In this document: positions 29,947 through 38,823 of the stretch, one piece after another
How the letters are laid out: every line of letters starts with the position of its first letter
How positions within the stretch are numbered: position 1 is the first letter of the stretch
Source: Rhodococcus sp. RD6.2
Lineage (GTDB): Bacteria > Actinomycetota > Actinomycetes > Mycobacteriales > Mycobacteriaceae
DNA length: 64,000 nucleotides
Direction: 5' to 3'
Assembly: GCF_001040705.1 (NCBI RefSeq)
Contig: NZ_CVQP01000001.1
Span: 364,324-428,323 of the forward strand
Notes under the pieces: generated by a model
Told to the model about the DNA's origin: nothing
Database searches by the model: none
What the model saw: the letters and a program-made list of their open reading frames with translations, nothing else
Program-made: the position numbers and the translations under genes

Positions 29947-31173
29947 TCACGCCGCGGCCTTGTGCAGTCGGGGGAGCGGGAACACCAGTTCGCCGCCCCA
30001 GTCCTTGATGTAGTCGAGTTGCTCGGTGAGTTCCGGCTCGAGGTTCCACGGCAGCCCGAGCACCACGTCGGGTCGATCCCTGGAGATCCGTTCCGGTTCG
30101 CGGATCGGGATTCGGGTGCCCGGGGTGAACCGCCCGTGCTTGTACGGGTTCCGGTCCACCGTGTACTCGAGGAGGTCGGGTCGAATGCCGCAGTAGTTCA
30201 GGAGGGTGTTGCCCTTGCCGGGTGCACCGTAACCGACAACCGAGCGGCCCTCCGCCCGACGGTCGAGGAGGAAACGCAACAGCTGGTGGCGGACCGACCG
30301 GGCCTGTTCGGCGAGCCGAAGATACCCGTCGACGTCGTGGAGTCCGGCACGCTTCTCGATCGCAAGCACGTCGCGAACGCGCTGGCTGGCCGGACCCGCG
30401 GCGGATTCGGGCTGCGCCCAGATCCGGAGGGATCCGCCGTGCGTGGGCAGCGACTCGACGTCGACGACTGCCAGGCCGGCGGTGGAAAGGGCTCGCGCCG
30501 CGGACAGCACCGTGTAGTACTGGAAATGCTCGTGGTAGATCGTGTCGAACTGGCCGAGTGTCACGAGATTCAACGCGTGGTGGACCTCGATGGTCAGCCA
30601 TCCGGTGTCGGCCATGAGAGTGCGCAGGGCCTGGGTGAATCCGATCAGATCCGGAACGTGGGCGTATACGTTGTTGGCGACGACCAGGTCGGCCGTCCCG
30701 AACTCACTCCGCACGGTTGCCGCGGTCGTCGGGTCGAGGAAGTCGGTGTAGGTGGGCACGCCGCGCTCACGGGCGGCAGTGCCGACGTTGACCGACGGCT
30801 CGATTCCGAGGCAGGGGATGCCGGCGCGGACGACGTGCTGGAGCAGGTAGCCGTCGTTGCTCGCGACCTCCACGACCCGGGAGTGGGTGTCGAGTCCGAG
30901 GCGACGGACGGACTCTTCGACGAATCGCTGGGCGTGTTCGACCCAGCTGTCAGAGTACGACGCGAAGTACGCGTACTCGGTGAACGTGTCTTCCGGGCTG
31001 ATCAGTGCGGGGATCTGGAGCAGCATGCAGTCCTCGCACAAGCGGAGGTGCAGGGGATAGGTGGGTTCCGGGGTGTCCAGCTGCGCGAGGGTGAGGAATC
31101 GCTCGCACGGTGGTGTCGCACCGAGGTCGAGGACGCTCAGGAGGCGGTCCGAGTCACACAGTCTGCACCGCAT
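29947..31173 (-). CDS. Zinc-ribbon class I SAM C-methyltransferase (TylCIII/NovU type)
   Basis: Sugar C-methyltransferase of 408 residues. The N-terminal zinc site (CRLC then CEDC), an intact SAM motif VVEVASNDGYLLQ near residue 98, the YHEHFQYYTVL segment near 205 with the proposed catalytic Tyr/His/Glu, and a C-terminal GYGAPGKGNTLLNYCGI domain near 305 match enzymes that methylate C3 of 4-keto sugars. Start 31173 places GAGGAG about nine bases upstream; the in-frame extension is non-conserved. It is the first gene of the minus-strand operon, with a perfect inverted repeat 32-50 bases upstream that could regulate it. Confidence 0.87.
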   Translation of the reverse strand: MRCRLCDSDRLLSVLDLGATPPCERFLTLAQLDTPEPTYPLHLRLCEDCMLLQIPALISPEDTFTEYAYFASYSDSWVEHAQRFVEESVRRLGLDTHSRVVEVASNDGYLLQHVVRAGIPCLGIEPSVNVGTAARERGVPTYTDFLDPTTAATVRSEFGTADLVVANNVYAHVPDLIGFTQALRTLMADTGWLTIEVHHALNLVTLGQFDTIYHEHFQYYTVLSAARALSTAGLAVVDVESLPTHGGSLRIWAQPESAAGPASQRVRDVLAIEKRAGLHDVDGYLRLAEQARSVRHQLLRFLLDRRAEGRSVVGYGAPGKGNTLLNYCGIRPDLLEYTVDRNPYKHGRFTPGTRIPIREPERISRDRPDVVLGLPWNLEPELTEQLDYIKDWGGELVFPLPRLHKAAA

Positions 31174-31204
31174 TGGTCGTCTTCTCCTCGTCCGGACCGT
31201 TGAG

Positions 31205-31223
31205 AGTTGGACTGCGTCCAACT
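31205..31223. promoter_or_regulatory. Perfect inverted repeat upstream of the tailoring operon
   Basis: AGTTGGAC and GTCCAACT form eight-base arms around a three-base spacer, centred 41 bases before the methyltransferase start at 31173. Size and position fit an operator for a dimeric repressor covering or abutting the promoter. A short RNA hairpin in the leader is the alternative. Confidence 0.5.
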
Positions 31224-31360
31224 AACCACACTCCGCACACGCTTTCAAGGGTCTATAAGTACTTCAGGTCGGTTTATATCCGATTTCTTAGTCTTCGAGT
31301 TTGCATTCGAATGGTCTGGTGGGAATAGGAATTTCGCCATCTGGACATGTCTCCCCAACG

Positions 31361-31374
31361 CCGCGAATTCGCGG
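31361..31374. promoter_or_regulatory. 14-base perfect palindrome in the divergent intergenic region
   Basis: CCGCGAATTCGCGG lies 72 bases upstream of the first GyrI-like gene (31446), inside an unusually A/T-rich intergenic region (31174-31445) that separates two divergent operons. It may be an operator for the plus-strand signalling operon. No confident -35/-10 pair was found nearby. Confidence 0.35.
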
Positions 31375-31445
31375 TTATGGTGGATCTGCTGTGACCGGAT
31401 CGGGTGTCGTCGCGAGCAATGGGAAGCCCGTTCCGGGGAGGGAGC

Positions 31446-31925
31446 GTGGTGGAATTGCGATCCGGGGAGATTGAGTTCGTCGAACTCGGCCAGACGTTCG
31501 TGGGGGGACTCCCGGTGCGAAGTCCCAAGCGTCCGTTGGGGATGCTGCGCGATCCGAACCTCGAGCGAGCCTGGTCCGCGGTGCTCAAACAGAATCCCCC
31601 AGGCCCGCTCGCCTCTATCTACACGGATCATTCCGCAGAGGCCGGTTCCTTCTACACCCAGGTCGTGGGTTACCGGTGCGAGTCGATCAAGGACGTGATG
31701 CGTGGCCATGTGATGGCGCGGGTTCCTGGCGGGCGCTACGCGCGGTTCGTGTCGACCGGCGAATTTCCCGACGTGGTGAGCAACCTGTGGCAGCAGGTTC
31801 GGGAGGCGGAGGACGCGGGGCAGATCCACCGGGTCGCTACCAGCGCTTACGAGTGCTACCCGCACGCGTACCGGATCGATCTCTACATTGCGGTCGACGA
31901 CCAGTCCTCGGAGATCCGGTCATGA
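31446..31925 (+). CDS. GyrI-like small-molecule-binding protein, paralogue 1
   Basis: Protein of 159 residues resembling the GyrI/AraC effector-binding fold (SHS2 modules): a SIYTDHSAEAGSFYTQVVGYRCES strand-loop-strand near residue 60, the typical VPGGRYARFVSTGEFPDVVSNLWQQV segment near 95 and a YRIDLYIAVDD end. There is no DNA-binding domain, so it probably binds a small molecule by itself or modulates a partner. A GGGGAGGGAG ribosome-binding site precedes the paired GTG codons at 31446 and 31449. Its stop overlaps the start of a paralogue. First gene of the putative signalling operon. Confidence 0.7.
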   Translation: MVELRSGEIEFVELGQTFVGGLPVRSPKRPLGMLRDPNLERAWSAVLKQNPPGPLASIYTDHSAEAGSFYTQVVGYRCESIKDVMRGHVMARVPGGRYARFVSTGEFPDVVSNLWQQVREAEDAGQIHRVATSAYECYPHAYRIDLYIAVDDQSSEIRS

Positions 31926-32347
31926 GCTTTGAGATCGTCAAACTCGGGGTGGTCGACATCGGAGGATTGGTCCTGCCGGATGTGGAGCCGGCATCGGGGG
32001 AGCGGTTGGGCGGGCTGATGGAATTCACCCGTGAACGCATGTGTGAACGGGGCGTCGCGGAAATCGTGACGGTGTACACCCCGAACGCGGAGGGCGATTC
32101 GATCGCGGTTGTCGGGTACCGGTGCGAGGGTGCGGAACACCTCGCCGAAGGCGACGTCATGGTGCGGGTCCCGGCCGGCTACTTCGCGCGATTCGTTCCG
32201 GACGGACCCGTCGATGATCCGATGACCGATGTGTGGAACCAGGTGGAGGTCGCAGCAAAGGAAGGGATGATCGACCGTGCCTTCGCCGAGGAAATCGAGA
32301 TCACCCGCGCGCCGAACGGGTTCGAACTCTTCATCTCGCTGACCTAG
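31922..32347 (+). CDS. GyrI-like small-molecule-binding protein, paralogue 2
   Basis: Protein of 141 residues homologous to its upstream neighbour. Shared features are the VYTPNAEGDSIAVVGYRCEG core near residue 50, VPAGYFARFVPDGPVDDPMTDVWNQV near 85 and a C-terminal FELFISL strand. The ATG start overlaps the previous stop (ATGA), suggesting equimolar synthesis and perhaps a heterodimer. Stand-alone GyrI-like proteins are annotated as effector-binding domains or YdeE-type regulators; some members of the fold are hydrolases. No function can be assigned. Confidence 0.7.
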   Translation: MSFEIVKLGVVDIGGLVLPDVEPASGERLGGLMEFTRERMCERGVAEIVTVYTPNAEGDSIAVVGYRCEGAEHLAEGDVMVRVPAGYFARFVPDGPVDDPMTDVWNQVEVAAKEGMIDRAFAEEIEITRAPNGFELFISLT

Positions 32348-32418
32348 GCGCACGCTCCGCGGATGGTCGGGTTTCCGTACGAATCCGAAACTCGAACACT
32401 CCGAAATTGGAGGCAGTG

Positions 32419-33162
32419 ATGGCCCGTGCACTTTCCTGTGCAATCCGGGGGGCCGAGAAGATATTCGAAGAGACGAGTGTGTGGGATCCGAGATCGGAAT
32501 GCCGATTCGTCGCGGCACGACCGGACGAGGAACCCGGATTGTGGTCGGAATATCTCGCCGGTGCCTTCGAGAGTTACTCGAAGCACGGTGTGGTCGACGC
32601 TCTGGAGTACGAACGGATCCGTGACGGGAGTACGACCACGCTGTTCTTCGTCGCGGTTGCGGCGGATGGCACCGTCAACGGCGGGTTGCGGGCGCAGGGA
32701 CCGTACGACCGTCCGGAACAATCCCACGTGATGGAGGAGTGGTCGAACCAGGTTGGTGAGGCGGCTGCGCGTGAGATGATCGCCGACCGAATTCCGTTCG
32801 GTGTGGTGGAGATGAAGGCCGCCTGGGTTCGCGATCGGGCGCCGAATCGGCGGGCACTCACCCAGTCATTGGCCTCCGTCGGCGTCTGCGCACTCGAATT
32901 GCTCGACGTCCAGTTCCTGATGGCGTCGGCCGCCGACCACGTCCTGGATCTGTGGGCCTCGTCGGGCGGCGTGGTGGCCACAAGGATTCCTCCGGCCGCA
33001 TACCCGGACGACCGCTACCGGACGCGGATGATGTGGTGGGACCGCGACGATCGCCGCATCCGAGCGGTTGCGCAGCAGTTCGCCCGCCTGTGGGCGGAGA
33101 ACGAACCGGGGCGGTCGGGGCAGGTGCGTCAGGCCGTCGAGGGTCGTGATGCCAGTGCATGA
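32419..33162 (+). CDS. Conserved hypothetical protein, acyltransferase-like (possible Rv1356c relative)
   Basis: Protein of 247 residues without a confidently recognised domain. The segment ECRFVAARPDEE, then FFVAVAADGTVNGGLRAQGPY around residues 75-95, then VMEEWS, resembles the beta4-beta5 part of GNAT and LuxI/FeeM-type acyl transferases, in which a small molecule is N-acylated using acyl-CoA or acyl-ACP. This is a weak, visual resemblance. GGAGG six bases before ATG 32419 sets the start. It overlaps the ThiF-nitroreductase gene by 14 bases. From memory, M. tuberculosis Rv1356c, next to Rv1355c and Rv1354c, has similar size, which would make this a conserved three-gene set. Confidence 0.6.
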   Translation: MARALSCAIRGAEKIFEETSVWDPRSECRFVAARPDEEPGLWSEYLAGAFESYSKHGVVDALEYERIRDGSTTTLFFVAVAADGTVNGGLRAQGPYDRPEQSHVMEEWSNQVGEAAAREMIADRIPFGVVEMKAAWVRDRAPNRRALTQSLASVGVCALELLDVQFLMASAADHVLDLWASSGGVVATRIPPAAYPDDRYRTRMMWWDRDDRRIRAVAQQFARLWAENEPGRSGQVRQAVEGRDASA

Positions 33163-35281
33163 CAATGACTACACGGCAACACTTCTCGATGAGGAATCGC
33201 CTACTGACGCCCCGCAGATCGCGGCGATTCGGGAGGGTGTCGGGGTGCGATGTCACGACGAGCTCGTGGCCCAGCGCGCTGCGCTGGGCGCACTCGTCCC
33301 GGCGCCGCACCCGTCGGTTCTGCGAGAGTCGGCGCGGTGGGCCTACTACCCATGGCGCCGCGCAGTGGTACGGATCCTCGGCCCGACCGGCTACCGGTTG
33401 TTGCGGCTGGACCGGAACAGGAACAAGATCACCGACGAAGAGCAGCGGCGCCTGGCCGAGCTGCAGGTTGGAATCGTCGGGCTCAGCGTCGGGCACGCTG
33501 TCGCCCTCGCCCTCACCTTGGAGTCCTCCGTCGGAGCGATTCGTCTCGCGGACTTCGACGTCCTCGAATTGTCCAATCTGAACCGCGTGCCGGCCACAGT
33601 GTTCGACCTGGGCCTGAACAAGGCGATTGCGGCGGCGCGCCGGATTGCGGAGATCGACCCGTATCTGCAGGTGTCGGTCTGGCGCGACGGTGTCACTGCG
33701 GAGACCGTCGGTGCCTTCCTCGAAGGCCTCGACCTCGTCATCGAGGAATGCGATTCGTTGGATGTGAAGGTGGCGGTGCGGGAGGAGGCTCGTCGACGTC
33801 GGCTGCCGGTCCTGATGGAGACCAGTGACCGGGGCCTGATCGATGTCGAGCGGTACGACCTGGAGCCGGATCGCGCACTGTTCCACGGCCTGCTCGGTGA
33901 ACGCGACGGCGCGGAGCTCTCCAGGCTGTCGGCGCGTGACAAGATCCCGCACATCCTGCGCATTCTCGGCGCCGCTGATCTGTCGACCAGAATGGTTGCG
34001 TCCCTCGTCGAGGTCGGCAGCACGATCTCCACCTGGCCGCAGCTCGGCGGCGACGTCCTCCTCGGCGGTGCCAGCGTGGCCGCGGCCGTCCGCCGGATCG
34101 GTCTGGGGCGTCCCCTTCCTTCGGGCCGGGTCCGGATCGATCTCGACGAACGACTCGACGACGTGCGCGCGCCGCTCACCGAGCCCGGCGGGCACGCAGG
34201 CCTGGAGCCACCTGCCGAGACCCCGCCCACTGACGGGAGGGCCGCAGTCGCGCGGGCCGCGTGCCTTGCCCCGTCCGGAGGCAATGCCCAGCCGTGGCGA
34301 ATGGTGACCACGCCGGACGAGTTGCGGCTGTATCTCGACCCCGACCGGACGACGGCGATGGATGTGCGGTACCGCGGGAGTCACGTGGCCATCGGCGCTG
34401 CGCTCTTCAACGCCCGAGTCGCCGCCGCCACCCAGGGCCTCCTCGGACGGGTCGACCTGTTCGGTGACGTCACCACGCCCGCGCTGGTCGCGACCATGGC
34501 GTTCGGCTCCGGCACGGACCCGGTGCTGGCCCACCGGTTCGACGGAATGATTCGGCGAGGGACCAATCGGAGGGCGGGCTCGCCCCGCCCGCTTCCGGTT
34601 GCGGCACGTGAGGCGCTGGCAGGAGCCGCCAGAGCCGAAGGTGTGCGGCTGACGATCGTCACCGAGCGGTCTGCCATCGACTCGGCAGCGATGGTATTCG
34701 CCGCTGCCGAGCGGATCCGGTTCCTCGATCCGCGCCTGCACGCCGAAATGATCGGTGAATTGCGTTGGCCGGGTGTGGATCGCCTGGAAACCGGCATAGA
34801 CGTGCGATCGCTCGAACTTGACGACGCGGATCTCTCGGCCTTGCGGGTACTGTGCCGAGCCGACGCGATGGATGCACTGGCCGCCTGGGGGCTGGGACAG
34901 TCGCTGGGCGCCGCAAGCCGTGACCGGATCAGGTCCAGCAGCGCATTGGTGGCCGTCGTGGTGAACGGAACGGAGCCGGCGGATTTCGTTCGGGGCGGGT
35001 CTGCGGTGGAGTCCGTGTGGATCACGGCCGAGGACCACGGCATGGCGGTACAGCCGATTTCGCCGGTGTTCCTCTACGGATTGGAGCAGGATGAACTGGC
35101 GGCGTTGGCCCCCGCATACAAGGCGGAACTCGCCGTGGGGAGCGGCACATGGCGCGAGTTGTTCCAAGTCGGTGGGAGCGAGGCCCTCGCGCTGGTGTTG
35201 CGTCTGAGCCATTGCGCGTCCGCGTCGGTCCGGAGCCGTCGCCGACCACCGACCACCGATCCTCCGGTACTCACGTCCTGA
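33149..35281 (+). CDS. ThiF/E1-like adenylyltransferase-nitroreductase fusion (Rv1355c family)
   Basis: Fusion protein of 710 residues, close in size to mycobacterial Rv1355c (called MoeY). Residues about 100-330 form a ThiF/MoeB/E1-like domain: nucleotide loop VGIVGLSVGHAVAL, ADFDVLELSNLNRV with the conserved Asp and Arg, and NKAIAAARRIAEIDP. No zinc-binding Cys pairs or catalytic cysteine are evident, unlike MoeB. Residues about 365-690 are a nitroreductase-like FMN domain starting at AACLAPSGGNAQPWRM. The substrate is unknown; the old molybdopterin label is not supported by neighbours. It lies between the acyltransferase-like gene and the c-di-GMP enzyme, as in mycobacteria. Confidence 0.85.
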   Translation: MPVHDNDYTATLLDEESPTDAPQIAAIREGVGVRCHDELVAQRAALGALVPAPHPSVLRESARWAYYPWRRAVVRILGPTGYRLLRLDRNRNKITDEEQRRLAELQVGIVGLSVGHAVALALTLESSVGAIRLADFDVLELSNLNRVPATVFDLGLNKAIAAARRIAEIDPYLQVSVWRDGVTAETVGAFLEGLDLVIEECDSLDVKVAVREEARRRRLPVLMETSDRGLIDVERYDLEPDRALFHGLLGERDGAELSRLSARDKIPHILRILGAADLSTRMVASLVEVGSTISTWPQLGGDVLLGGASVAAAVRRIGLGRPLPSGRVRIDLDERLDDVRAPLTEPGGHAGLEPPAETPPTDGRAAVARAACLAPSGGNAQPWRMVTTPDELRLYLDPDRTTAMDVRYRGSHVAIGAALFNARVAAATQGLLGRVDLFGDVTTPALVATMAFGSGTDPVLAHRFDGMIRRGTNRRAGSPRPLPVAAREALAGAARAEGVRLTIVTERSAIDSAAMVFAAAERIRFLDPRLHAEMIGELRWPGVDRLETGIDVRSLELDDADLSALRVLCRADAMDALAAWGLGQSLGAASRDRIRSSSALVAVVVNGTEPADFVRGGSAVESVWITAEDHGMAVQPISPVFLYGLEQDELAALAPAYKAELAVGSGTWRELFQVGGSEALALVLRLSHCASASVRSRRRPPTTDPPVLTS

Positions 35282-35291
35282 GGGGCACGCC

Positions 35292-37154
35292 ATGTCAGCG
35301 CACACACTCGAGGAACTCGTCACCGGCGTCGCCTCGCGTCTGACCGCGACCACCGCCCTTACCTGGGTGGACAGTGCCGAGGAGGTCCTGCACGACCTGG
35401 TCGACTACTTCGAATTGGACGCGTGCTTCCTACGGCGGAACGACCACGACGTCCGTGCCACGATCCTCGTGGCCGAGTGGCCGCACCGAACGAACGTGCC
35501 TGATCCGGATCCCCTCGCGGTCGTCTACTTCGAGGATGCCGATCCGGAATTCGCCAGGGCCGAGCACCTCAAGGAGGTCGGCATCGTCCGGCCCGGAGGG
35601 GACGCCACCGGCTATCAGGATCGGGTGACTGCCGGATCGGGTGTACCTGCGGTGACGCTGGCGGCGATACCCCTGCTGTCCGGCGACGTGACAACCGGGA
35701 CCCTCGGCTTCGTTCGTTTCGGGGACCGGGATTGGAGTTCTGCGGAGATCAACGTGCTCAAGGCCATTGCAGCCCTCCTCACCCAGGTACAGGAACGGGT
35801 CCGTGCCGAGAGCCTCCTGCTCTACTGGGCGCACAACGACGCGCTGACCGGGTTGGCCAACCGCCGCTCGCTGCTCGAGCATCTCGTGCGCCGGATGGCG
35901 TCCGGCGAGCGGGGTCCAGTGGCCCTGATGTTCCTCGACCTGGATCGGCTCAAGACTCTCAACGACTTCCTCGGGCACACCGCCGGCGACCGGTTCATCG
36001 TCGAGATCGGTTCCCGTCTGGCGGACTCGCGTGCATCGGGTGACCTGGTGGCACGGCTCGGCGGGGACGAGTTCGTTGTCGTTCTCGGTGGGGAGGCGGA
36101 CGTGGGCACGGCGTGCCGCGAAGCGGAACGGATCAGTGAGGTCGTCAACGAGCCGGTGATACTCGGCAACGTGTCCTTCAGTCGAAGTGTGAGTGTCGGC
36201 ATTGCGGTCGGCACGCCCGGTGACTGCACGGCGGTGGATCTGCTGTGGCAGGCGGATCAGGCTGTCATCGCGGCGAAGGCGCAGGGCGGCAACGCTATAG
36301 CGGCGTTCACGGAGAGCATGCGCGCCGAGGTCGAGGTTCGGAGCATTGTCGAACTGAGCCTCCGGTCGTCGATCGACGAAGACCGGCTCCATCTCCTGTA
36401 CCAGCCGGAGGTCGATCTGCGGACCGGTCGGATCCTTGCGGTCGAAGCGCTGGCGCGGTGGGTCCACCCCGCGCTGGGACTGCTGTTGCCGCAGTCGTTC
36501 ATCCCGGTCGCCGAGTCGACGAATCTTGCGAGTGAGCTGGGTGCGTGGGTGTTGCGTCGGGCGTGCAGTGACTATGCCCGGTGGCGCGCGGCGACTCCCG
36601 GCCTCGACATCACGCTGAGAGTGAACGTGTCACCGGCGCAACTGGTGGGTCTCGAGTTCCTCGAGGTCGTCTCGCGGATCCTCGACGAGCACGCCGTCCG
36701 CGGTGATCGGTTGTGCCTCGAGATCACCGAGAATGCAGTGGTCGGCGACCTGGACCGAACCCGCGTCGCACTTCAGGGGCTGGCCGATCTCGGGGTCCGG
36801 GTGGCGATCGACGACTTCGGGACGGGGTACAGCTCCCTGGCCCAACTCAAACAGCTGCGGTTCGACGTGCTGAAGATCGACCGCGAGTTCGTTCGTGACC
36901 TCGGCAACTCTCCGGGTGATCTTGCGATCGTCAAGTCCATCGTGGGATTGGCCAGGTCGTTCGACCTCGATCTGGTTGCCGAGGGGGTGGAGAACGACAC
37001 GGCTGCGGAGGTACTGCTCGGATTGGGCTGCAACCGGGCCCAGGGTTTCCTGCTCAGTCCACCAGTGACAGTGGAGCGCTGCGGCGAGTTGCTCCGTGCC
37101 GGATGGATTCCGGTGGACCCGGCTCTGCGCACACCCCGTCGTCTCAACGTCTAG
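35292..37154 (+). CDS. GAF-GGDEF-EAL cyclic-di-GMP synthase/phosphodiesterase (Rv1354c-like)
   Basis: Bifunctional c-di-GMP enzyme of 620 residues, matching the size of M. tuberculosis Rv1354c. An N-terminal GAF-like sensor (about 10-160) precedes a GGDEF domain with an intact RLGGDEF active site near residue 256; the inhibitory RxxD motif five residues upstream is not preserved (ASGD). The EAL domain retains EALARW near 385, Asn in RVNVSPAQL, LEITEN, DDFGTGYSS, KIDREFV, AEGVE and NRAQGF, so it should hydrolyse c-di-GMP. No membrane segment is visible. It is the last gene of the operon beginning at 31446 and immediately precedes the initiating sugar transferase, suggesting second-messenger control of exopolysaccharide. 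Confidence 0.92.
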   Translation: MSAHTLEELVTGVASRLTATTALTWVDSAEEVLHDLVDYFELDACFLRRNDHDVRATILVAEWPHRTNVPDPDPLAVVYFEDADPEFARAEHLKEVGIVRPGGDATGYQDRVTAGSGVPAVTLAAIPLLSGDVTTGTLGFVRFGDRDWSSAEINVLKAIAALLTQVQERVRAESLLLYWAHNDALTGLANRRSLLEHLVRRMASGERGPVALMFLDLDRLKTLNDFLGHTAGDRFIVEIGSRLADSRASGDLVARLGGDEFVVVLGGEADVGTACREAERISEVVNEPVILGNVSFSRSVSVGIAVGTPGDCTAVDLLWQADQAVIAAKAQGGNAIAAFTESMRAEVEVRSIVELSLRSSIDEDRLHLLYQPEVDLRTGRILAVEALARWVHPALGLLLPQSFIPVAESTNLASELGAWVLRRACSDYARWRAATPGLDITLRVNVSPAQLVGLEFLEVVSRILDEHAVRGDRLCLEITENAVVGDLDRTRVALQGLADLGVRVAIDDFGTGYSSLAQLKQLRFDVLKIDREFVRDLGNSPGDLAIVKSIVGLARSFDLDLVAEGVENDTAAEVLLGLGCNRAQGFLLSPPVTVERCGELLRAGWIPVDPALRTPRRLNV

Positions 37155-37230
37155 TCCACAGGCCTGAAACAGGGTGGCGACATTGCTTGAGTAGAATAAC
37201 CAACTTGGAGTATGTTTTAGCGATGGTTTG

Positions 37231-37266
37231 TTGAGTCAATGACGATCATCGGGCGGTATATTCCGG
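37231..37266 (+). promoter_or_regulatory. Possible promoter for leaderless transcription of the sugar transferase
   Basis: A TATATT hexamer (37257-37262) ends four bases before the ATG at 37267, the spacing expected for a leaderless mRNA beginning at or next to the start codon, and no ribosome-binding site is present. An upstream TTGAGT (37231-37236) is at 20 bases, longer than ideal. The surrounding 37155-37266 region is A/T-rich. Confidence 0.4.
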
Positions 37267-38823
37267 ATGTGCGAATGCAGCGCGGTTGCGGGCGCCGAGG
37301 CAGACACGCGAGACACGTCAGCTCTGGTGTGTCCGGTGTGTGGACGGCCTTTCGCAGAAGTCGCCCGTCCGTTCGGGGCCTGGCGGCTACCGCTGCCGTT
37401 GCCGCCCCCGCCGCGGCCGGGTTGGGAGTCCCGCTACGGACTGATGGCGCTCGGGGTCGACGTCCTCAGCCTGCTGGCCGCCGACCTGTTCGTCTCGGTC
37501 TTCTACCACGACCCGGAGGTACTCGAACATCCCGCCAATCTTGCTGTTGCGCTGGCCGTTCCGATTTGTGCACTGCTTTCCCTCGCGCTCAACCACGCCT
37601 GGGACCCGAGGATCCTGGGTTGCGGTCCCGAGGAGTTCCGTCGCGTCGCGTCGGCTTACGTGACGGTGATTGCCGTGATGGCGGTGGCCGGCTACGCGGC
37701 CGCAATGGCAGGCGGGCATTCGTGGGTGTTCGGGACCCTGCCGCTCGCGGCGGCGGCGTCCCTGGCCGGGCGCAAGTTGCTGCGCACATGGCTTCATCGT
37801 CGCCGCAGGTCAGGGGCGTATCTGCGGTCGGTGGTCGCGGCCGGTGACGAGGCGTCGGTGCGGGAGCTGATCCACCGGACCCGGGCGGCCACCAACACGG
37901 GCTGGAACGTCGAAGCGATCTGCCTCTCTCGCTCCGACCCGGCCCAGGAACTGCCACTGGAGATCGACGGAGTGCCTGTCGTCGGCACCGAGCGTGACGT
38001 TGTCGGGATCGTCGCGCTGCGTGGTTTCGCCGCGGTGGCGCTGCTCCCGTCGATCGGCTGGACACCGGCGCGGACCCAGCGCCTCGCCTGGGACCTCGAG
38101 GGCACCGGGGCGGACCTCCTCATCGCTCCCGCCCTCATGGACATCGTCGGGCCCCGGCTGCACATCAGCCCGGTGGCGGGTACACCGTTGCTCCAGTTGA
38201 GTGCGCCGCGGTTCACCGGACCGGCGTGGGTGGTCAAGTCCGTCCTCGACCGGGTTCTCGCGCTCGGGTTGCTGATCGCGATGCTGCCACTTCTGCTGGC
38301 GGTCGGCGGTGCGATTCGACTGACCAGTCCGGGGCCCGCGTTCTACCGTCAGACGCGGGTCGGACGGGCAGGCACCACCTTCGAGATGATCAAGTTCCGC
38401 AGCATGGTGCGCGACGCCGATACCCGGCTGGCCGCGTTGTCGTCCGCCGACGAGGGTGCGGGTGTCCTGTTCAAGATCAAGGATGATCCGCGGGTCACCC
38501 GGGTGGGCCACTTCATCCGGCGCTACTCCATCGACGAGCTGCCGCAGCTGTTCAACGTGGTGGCCGGGCACATGTCGCTCGTCGGCCCTCGGCCGCCGCT
38601 GATCGCCGAGGTCGAGAAGTACGACGACGGCGGCGTCCGGCGCCGGATGCTCGTCAAACCCGGACTGACGGGACTCTGGCAGGTCAGCGGCCGCAGCGAT
38701 CTCTCGTGGGAGGAATCGGTGCGCATGGACCTCCGGTACGTCGAGAACTGGTCGATGACCCTCGACCTGATGATCCTCTGGAAGACCGCCGCCGCCGTGT
38801 TCCGCGCCGAGGGCGCGTACTGA
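37267..38823 (+). CDS. Polyprenyl-phosphate sugar-1-phosphate transferase (WbaP/CpsE-like initiating enzyme)
   Basis: Transfers the first sugar-1-phosphate from a nucleotide sugar to undecaprenyl or decaprenyl phosphate, starting the repeat unit. The 518-residue protein has four N-terminal membrane segments (about 55-190), a central CoA-binding-like domain, a fifth membrane segment near 330 and the C-terminal bacterial sugar transferase domain with FYRQTRVGRAGTTFEMIKFRSM near 360, DELPQLFNVVAGHMSLVGPRPP near 425 and KPGLTGLWQVSGRSDLSWEE near 465. Unusually, the N-terminus carries a CPVC motif (residue 22) suggesting a metal ribbon. No ribosome-binding site precedes ATG 37267, consistent with leaderless translation. 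Confidence 0.9.
   Translation: MCECSAVAGAEADTRDTSALVCPVCGRPFAEVARPFGAWRLPLPLPPPPRPGWESRYGLMALGVDVLSLLAADLFVSVFYHDPEVLEHPANLAVALAVPICALLSLALNHAWDPRILGCGPEEFRRVASAYVTVIAVMAVAGYAAAMAGGHSWVFGTLPLAAAASLAGRKLLRTWLHRRRRSGAYLRSVVAAGDEASVRELIHRTRAATNTGWNVEAICLSRSDPAQELPLEIDGVPVVGTERDVVGIVALRGFAAVALLPSIGWTPARTQRLAWDLEGTGADLLIAPALMDIVGPRLHISPVAGTPLLQLSAPRFTGPAWVVKSVLDRVLALGLLIAMLPLLLAVGGAIRLTSPGPAFYRQTRVGRAGTTFEMIKFRSMVRDADTRLAALSSADEGAGVLFKIKDDPRVTRVGHFIRRYSIDELPQLFNVVAGHMSLVGPRPPLIAEVEKYDDGGVRRRMLVKPGLTGLWQVSGRSDLSWEESVRMDLRYVENWSMTLDLMILWKTAAAVFRAEGAY

Follow-up and report, generated by a model that had tools for sequence, protein, structure and literature searches.

The locus considered here lies in a stretch of 64,000 nucleotides from Rhodococcus sp. 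RD6.2 (contig NZ_CVQP01000001.1), called the window below. Five open reading frames (ORFs), overlapping or closely spaced, were found on its plus strand at 31446-37154. An earlier interpretation made from the letters alone (hereafter the sequence-only reading) had described them as two GyrI-like binding proteins, a protein with a GNAT/LuxI-like look, a ThiF-nitroreductase fusion and an intact GAF-GGDEF-EAL enzyme, and had proposed an undescribed pathway in which a small molecule is coupled to cyclic di-guanosine monophosphate (c-di-GMP). The ORFs were called mechanically and not with a gene caller. The features are as follows.

31446..31925, plus strand: gene 1, Cass2a, a GyrI-like small-molecule-binding protein of 159 aa (PF14526, 63.9 bits, cut-off 27)
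31922..32347, plus strand: gene 2, Cass2b, a diverged second Cass2-like protein of 141 aa (PF14526, 25.8 bits; 29% identity to Cass2a)
32419..33162, plus strand: gene 3, trzA homologue, a predicted amino-acid N-acyltransferase of 247 aa (co-occurrence with trzS)
33149..35281, plus strand: gene 4, trzS homologue, a ThiF-like cyclase joined to a flavin-dependent oxidase (FDO), 710 aa from the ATG at 33149 (NF005901)
35292..37154, plus strand: gene 5, a GAF-GGDEF-EAL c-di-GMP enzyme of 620 aa (Pfam domains and motifs)
35304..35786, plus strand: GAF sensor domain of gene 5, residues 5-165 (L75, F87, Y108, G117 and I126 at the signature positions)
37267..38823, plus strand: initiating sugar transferase, a candidate output gene outside the conserved core (PF02397, 222 bits)

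Genes 1 and 2 overlap by 4 nt and genes 3 and 4 by 14 nt; gaps of 71 nt and 10 nt separate genes 2 and 3 and genes 4 and 5, respectively. No sigma-70-like promoter was found in 31000-37400, and terminator-like sites there were at chance level. The observations of the sequence-only reading were confirmed and its interpretation was supported in part. Gene 4 combined ThiF and nitroreductase/FDO parts, gene 5 had all three domains together with GGDEF, EAL and DDFG motifs, and the initiating transferase announced for the downstream side starts 112 nt past gene 5. The description of two GyrI-like proteins held in that the two form a tandem Cass2-type pair; gene 2, the diverged member, scored just below the family cut-off. 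The genome measures 5.57 Mb, and its nearest relatives by protein similarity were R. tukisamuensis, R. spelaei and R. maanshanensis.

Judged by homology, genes 3 and 4 very probably encode N-acyl tryptazolone biosynthesis of the trzA/trzS type. Gene 4 scored 935 bits against the NCBIfam model NF005901 (“Rv1355c family protein”, cut-off 476). In the trzS alignment, residue D202 was present in 159 of 159 rows and aligned with an aspartate of the ThiF-family protein 4d7a. R524 was kept in 139 of the 140 rows having the FDO part, and Q635, the likely counterpart of Q651, was a glutamine in just 91 of those 140. These residues were matched to the published D217, R540 and Q651 by motif and offset. 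Gene 3 had 49% identity to the protein at the equivalent place in R. jostii NBRC 16295 (L066), and by this likeness and its co-occurrence with trzS it was assigned to the TrzA-type adjacent acyltransferases, an assignment made without alignment to Rv1356c or the RHA1 protein. It had no Pfam match, no coherent match was found among the 36 members scanned, and no credible PDB match was obtained by sequence. The GNAT/LuxI-like look was thus not borne out, and membership of GNAT, LuxI or FeeM by sequence was set aside on the lack of Pfam and PDB matches. The suggestion that genes 3-5 follow the order Rv1356c-Rv1355c-Rv1354c held, by NCBIfam for gene 4 and by position and relatives for genes 3 and 5, the M. 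tuberculosis proteins themselves not having been aligned.

The function of trzA and trzS was published in December 2025 (PMC12856293). According to the available part of that paper, Rv1356c is TrzA, which acylates L-tryptophan with a short or medium acyl-CoA, and Rv1355c is TrzS. The M. smegmatis TrzS is reported to perform an ATP-driven cyclisation first and then an O2-dependent desaturation, giving N-acyl tryptazolone. Tryptazolones were made by strains with the pairs of M. tuberculosis, M. smegmatis or R. jostii RHA1, and TrzA activity was seen for the M. tuberculosis protein in vitro and for the RHA1 protein in vivo. The paper describes strong absorption of the product at 400 nm. Since genes 3 and 4 are homologues of these characterised genes, the biosynthetic half of the locus is not undescribed, and this part of the sequence-only reading had to be given up. 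The window resembles the TrzAS system in having the two kinds of protein in equal order, the conserved cyclase aspartate and an Rv1355c-family score far above the cut-off. It differs in that the lipid pathway is the subject of the paper, with the neighbouring c-di-GMP genes of M. tuberculosis given a single remark in the part available, whereas the product of the window enzymes is predicted. The oxazolone pathways TyzACB and OxzAB share the class of chemistry (acyltransferase, ThiF cyclase and flavin oxidase), but are placed in another sequence subcluster than Trz (PMC10404671, PMC12856293, as far as their available parts go). The main text of PMC12856293 makes no mention of GyrI. In the full-text literature searched, this paper alone was returned for tryptazolone and for Rv1354c together with Rv1355c. 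Papers found for oxazolone with c-di-GMP concern other topics, judged by title, and no paper on this coupling, judged by title or the start of the abstract, came up for ThiF, diguanylate cyclase, acyltransferase and oxazolone taken at least three together. No report of a wide trz-c-di-GMP coupling was found within that literature.

Co-occurrence was counted in a family sample of 151 genomes, with trzS called at E <= 1e-60. Sixty-four genomes had trzS and 63 had trzA; both were present in 62 (trzS alone in 2, trzA alone in 1). GGDEF matches were found in 99 of the 151 genomes and in all 64 with trzS; the 52 genomes lacking a GGDEF match had no trzS (Fisher 2e-17, kinship ignored). Among genomes with a single GGDEF match, 13 of 22 carry trzS. 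G168 and G234, which belong to the window's genus, had no match to trzS, trzA, Cass2, GGDEF or EAL. The neighbourhoods of trzS were taken from the 64 trzS genomes (the window's and the other 63); locus L228 was excluded because it is the second contig half of a genome included in the count. The distance from trzS to a GGDEF gene was at most 3 kb in 62 of these genomes and at most 6 kb in every one of the 64, where about 0.7 genomes were expected by chance, a figure that is slightly low because PF00990 matches were counted to about 22 per genome at most. In G095 and G007 the GGDEF gene was 5 to 6 kb from trzS, beside a displaced trzA.

The order also persists across genera, as the sequence-only reading had supposed from M. 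tuberculosis. Gene order was compared in 80 named loci, kept as the best of 148 related places, so that weaker related places went unseen. A complete GAF-GGDEF-EAL gene was found downstream on the same strand in 75 of the 80, in 74 of them within 300 bp. In four others the c-di-GMP gene was cut by the contig end, with the GAF part recovered in L082, L104 and L110 and L139 recognised by profile match alone; the last (L079) had no c-di-GMP gene in its remaining 1.5 kb. The taxa concerned include Rhodococcus, Rhodococcoides, Nocardia, Mycobacterium, Actinomycetospora, Nakamurella, Jiangellaceae and Acidimicrobiia, and in 29 of the 30 acidimicrobiial loci TrzA and TrzS were in one reading frame. 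The adjacency is far beyond chance, and the conserved order is present from Rhodococcus to Acidimicrobiia. The tie between trz and c-di-GMP genes is far wider than the single printed remark, and this breadth, together with the GAF pattern described below, is what is new.

Several loci departed from the common layout. In L150 and L151 (the G095 and G007 loci) trzS and trzA were 4 to 5 kb apart, and the DNA between them includes a gene typed in L151 as a Na+/H+ antiporter-thioredoxin fusion; another gene, typed in L151 as cytochrome P450, lay just upstream of trzS. L166 (G257) and L182 (G161) had the order Cass2a-Cass2b-trzS-c-di-GMP gene, with no trzA in the locus and no trzA match in either genome (G161 is only 66% complete), and these strains might use N-acyl-tryptophan from neighbours. 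In L199, L200, L201 and L204 TrzS consisted of the ThiF part alone, the fetched stretch showing no FDO match. GAF position 126 was alanine or threonine and not valine in all four, and L199 had a DUF6875 gene between Cass2b and trzA. The genomes of genus g4 (L206-L210, L212 and L213) had a second ThiF-only copy with its own adjoining GGDEF gene, and thus hold two oxazolone-type/c-di-GMP pairings of differing type. A second gene of about 273 aa followed the GGDEF-EAL gene in 24 named loci (L093:12517-13338 and relatives; 22 Acidimicrobiia and 2 other metagenome-assembled genomes), with a GGDEF match in 23 of the 24 and no EAL in the one scanned. A second GAF-GGDEF-EAL copy, tandem or divergent, was found at seven trz loci (L148, L149, L152, L156, L161, L165 and L169).

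The c-di-GMP partner was not the same everywhere. One trzS clade (30 rows, support 92; trees were built in quick runs and rooted at the midpoint) was accompanied by a membrane-type GGDEF protein in place of GAF-GGDEF-EAL. In all 29 clustered proteins of this clade a GGEEF domain was preceded by 4 to 6 hydrophobic segments, and no GAF was found. TrzA matches were also detected in 7 of the 72,556 records of a plasmid collection (six Rhodococcus, one Nocardia). Three of the seven were opened; in two, an “Rv1355c family protein”, TrzA and a “GGDEF domain-containing protein” adjoined one another among unrelated genes, and the third (H7) was almost without annotation. Both plasmids with the trio are from Rhodococcus, one of them mobilizable and from R. 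qingshengii. Their GGDEF proteins are of the membrane type, a class set by hand and then checked by the GGEEF motif and the 4 hydrophobic segments that each of them has. In an outlying branch, labelled “Tyz-like” from its place in the tree alone, five loci had no c-di-GMP gene in the fetched stretch.

Given the differing neighbours, the membrane-GGDEF clade and the plasmid trios, the tie survives loss of the surrounding gene order, change of partner and transfer. These cases bear on the idea that adjacency reflects old chromosomal order alone. Some flanking genes do recur, such as the sugar transferase, which was found in 15 of 171 loci and in both arrangements. Among the 12 largest clusters of neighbouring genes, however, the trz and c-di-GMP enzyme clusters alone span Acidimicrobiia and the other named taxa, the c-di-GMP partner has been replaced with the tie kept, and the trio is carried on plasmids. 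A purely inherited neighbourhood was set aside on the plasmid and swapped-partner cases, and we consider it highly improbable.

Gene 5 fits the bifunctional DcpA-type enzymes in its domain order and its GGDEF and EAL motifs, and no RxxD inhibitory site was read from its sequence. Its architecture is shared with DcpA/MSDGC-1 (MSMEG_2196) and MtbDGC (Rv1354c), and MSMEG_2196 is stated to be the sole GGDEF/EAL enzyme of M. smegmatis (PMC2994820, PMC12632254, available parts). The same was found for the window's genome, where one PF00990 (GGDEF) match and one PF00563 (EAL) match were recovered, both in gene 5. The available text on DcpA and MtbDGC differs from the present case in naming guanosine diphosphate (GDP) as ligand, without a trz link or a lipid ligand (PMC2994820, PMC12632254, PMC8846402).

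Conservation was compared between enzymes linked to trz genes and unlinked relatives. With 119 linked and 11 unlinked rows, the positions conserved in linked rows and lost in unlinked ones numbered 5 of 37 in GAF, 1 of 44 in GGDEF and 0 of 74 in EAL. In a held-out test, positions were picked from Acidimicrobiia and Jiangellaceae alone and then scored on the family rows (44 linked). With 11 unlinked rows, retention was 84% in linked against 66% in unlinked rows for GAF (p 2.7e-6), 83% against 82% for GGDEF (p 0.28) and 90% against 87% for EAL (p 0.03). With two more unlinked copies from G252 (13 rows), GAF was again at 84% against 66% (p 8.8e-7), with GGDEF at 83% against 82% (p 0.40) and EAL at 90% against 87% (p 0.09), these p values overstating independence because the compared rows are related. 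Without the odd row L242, which is barely a GAF match, unlinked GAF retention was 70% (p 2.1e-6). L245 (contig end, 64% GAF retention) was excluded, as were L243 and L244, which had no GAF match, and retention in the linked row L162 was only 21%, its GAF part being encoded by a separate ORF. The label linked or unlinked switches at least 6 times on the catalytic-domain tree.

The strongest GAF positions were L75, F87, Y108, G117 and V126. At least four of these five signature residues were present in 113 of 119 linked rows and in 2 of 13 unlinked rows. The seven second copies at trz loci were placed in neither set; six of them keep all five residues and one keeps four. L223, an orthologue at a site without trz genes, has none of the five. 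Placement of the signature residues in a pocket through a relative of the GAF domain in the PDB was set aside, as the only match, to an adenosine monophosphate-binding enzyme, was weak (E 0.02).

This pattern suggests that the GAF domain reads the trz product or its precursor, and several results weigh against such a reading. Thirty-five of the 99 GGDEF-bearing genomes lack trzS. L223 and L224 pair Cass2 genes with a GAF-GGDEF-EAL enzyme in genomes without trzS, and L224 keeps all five signature residues, as one unlinked G252 copy keeps four. Besides the kinship among rows noted above, unlinked rows are scarce, and most of them are paralogues from genomes that have a trz locus as well. GAF sensing is not universal, since no GAF was found in the membrane-GGDEF clade. 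Finally, the GAF domain of M. smegmatis DcpA is reported to bind GDP (PMC8846402, available part), and deletion of MSMEG_2196 left aggregation of M. smegmatis unchanged (PMC12632254, available part). Some of these points are what would be expected if trzAS and the c-di-GMP enzyme were merely co-regulated stress outputs, with the GAF domain reading another cue such as GDP. The GDP report fits that explanation, as do the retention of the enzyme without trz in L223 and L224 and the swap of the linked GGDEF protein for the membrane type. It does not account for linkage-dependent conservation that falls mainly in the GAF domain, or for a tie that is kept where other neighbours differ and on plasmids, and we regard it as unlikely.

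The direction of the coupling could also be the reverse, with local c-di-GMP governing the synthesis, release or use of tryptazolone and the lipid being the output. The adjacency and co-occurrence data also fit this, and tryptazolones are reported to be enriched in the cell pellet (PMC12856293, available part). Against it, no PilZ match was found in any of the 10 genomes searched, the window's included, genes 3 and 4 have no c-di-GMP-binding Pfam domain, and the linkage-dependent constraint on the GAF domain would be left unexplained. We think this direction improbable.

The Cass2 pair was not a constant part of the locus. Cass2a matched the PDB entry 3gk6 (VCH_CASS2, E 1.6e-5), and its matches occurred in 41 of the 151 family genomes, each with at least 2. 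Cass2 genes near trzS were found in 10 of the 80 named loci, in Rhodococcus and Nocardia only, and this count ruled out the pair as a universal part of the operon that the sequence-only reading had drawn. Close Cass2a relatives (>150 bits) were found at 37 places in 36 genomes. Twenty-two of these were beside trz genes, four were near a GAF-GGDEF gene without a local trz gene (L219, L223, L224 and L226), and 11 were away from trz; among six of the latter that were fetched, none had a GGDEF hit in 16-17 kb. From this spread the pair is better regarded as an optional partner of the lipid and c-di-GMP genes.

A C-terminal glutamate is conserved in copies of the gene 1 type (as seen without an alignment to lin2189), and is missing in four gene 2 copies of one genus (L168, L177, L223 and L224). 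GyrI-like proteins can hydrolyse reactive small molecules (PMC5684135, available part). The Cass2 Pfam match of gene 1 and the conserved C-terminal glutamate are shared with the GyrI-like binding proteins and cyclopropanoid hydrolases treated there. Unlike these, the Cass2 proteins here form a tandem diverged pair (41 of 41 matching genomes), often beside trz or c-di-GMP genes. The pair is a likely candidate for binding, buffering or hydrolysis of the trz product. TetR regulators matching TetR_C_45 recurred in the vicinity of the Cass2 pair or on the downstream side of the c-di-GMP gene (L066:5090-5770, L228:3066-3725, L220:9071-9748 and L158:13217-13954), and are candidate transcriptional readers of the lipid.

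It could be supposed that the Cass2 pair itself is the true receptor, or a hydrolase of labile oxazolone, and passes the effect on to the c-di-GMP enzyme. In L223 and L224, where trzAS is missing, the pair immediately precedes the c-di-GMP gene, and in L219 it has a GAF-GGDEF gene next to it; the hydrolytic activity known from GyrI-like proteins would agree with such a role. However, Cass2 genes are absent from the surroundings of trzS in 70 of the 80 named loci, close relatives occur away from trz and, where fetched, away from GGDEF genes, and the four gene 2 copies lack the glutamate. A relay of this kind appears distinctly improbable.

The sugar transferase downstream of gene 5 is shared by a minority of loci. 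Eight of the 15 loci with its cluster had the membrane-GGDEF arrangement. It was present in G221 and G205, and no match at E 1e-60 was obtained in G191, which carries the unit, or in G168 and G234. A universal link to exopolysaccharide was set aside on these grounds, since 15 of 171 loci have the transferase next to the unit and no match to it was obtained in the unit-bearing G191. In the window the exopolysaccharide transferase is a possible output.

We propose that the unit is a signal-synthase and c-di-GMP-effector module. TrzA and then TrzS would build N-acyl tryptazolone, as shown for their homologues. The GAF domain of the GAF-GGDEF-EAL enzyme would bind the tryptazolone or its N-acyl-tryptophan precursor, and the ligand-bound domain would set the balance between synthesis and breakdown of c-di-GMP. 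Taken as a whole, sensing of the trz product by the GAF domain and a consequent switch in c-di-GMP turnover is the best explanation at hand, to which we give a probability of about 0.5. Functional coupling of the trz pathway to c-di-GMP, as suggested by gene order and co-occurrence, is probable. Direct sensing of the product or precursor by the GAF domain, which the conservation pattern suggests, has about an even chance of being correct. A small-molecule pathway coupled to c-di-GMP, as the sequence-only reading had proposed, remains the best reading, though not as an undescribed pathway.

A similar design is known from RpfF/RpfR, where the gene of a fatty-acid (diffusible signal factor) synthase lies beside that of a PAS-GGDEF-EAL receptor (PMC4504480, PMC8846402, available parts). 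In both, the synthase gene adjoins the gene of a c-di-GMP enzyme with an N-terminal small-molecule domain. The window differs in having no crotonase Pfam domain in genes 3 and 4, a GAF domain and not PAS, and a predicted aromatic oxazolone and not a fatty acid. As the synthases are unrelated, the unit is like RpfF/RpfR in design and is not a member of that system.

In the window's genome, where gene 5 was the only GGDEF/EAL gene found, the lipid would feed directly into all c-di-GMP signalling. More tentatively, N-acyl tryptazolone or N-acyl tryptophan may serve Actinomycetota as a genuine signal, with the GAF domain of a dedicated c-di-GMP enzyme as its reader. This would be an autoinducer-type circuit for mycolate-containing bacteria, with a fused synthase in Acidimicrobiia, a receptor once swapped to a membrane GGDEF protein, and plasmid-borne copies. 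The physiological role of tryptazolones was termed unresolved by their discoverers (PMC12856293, available part). Should the trz product switch the neighbouring enzyme, the question of the lipid's role would become part of one testable circuit. The coupling would be cheap and simple to test, as a trzAS deletion strain of R. jostii RHA1 is already in print (PMC12856293, available part) and a single gene appears to make up the entire c-di-GMP system of this Rhodococcus.

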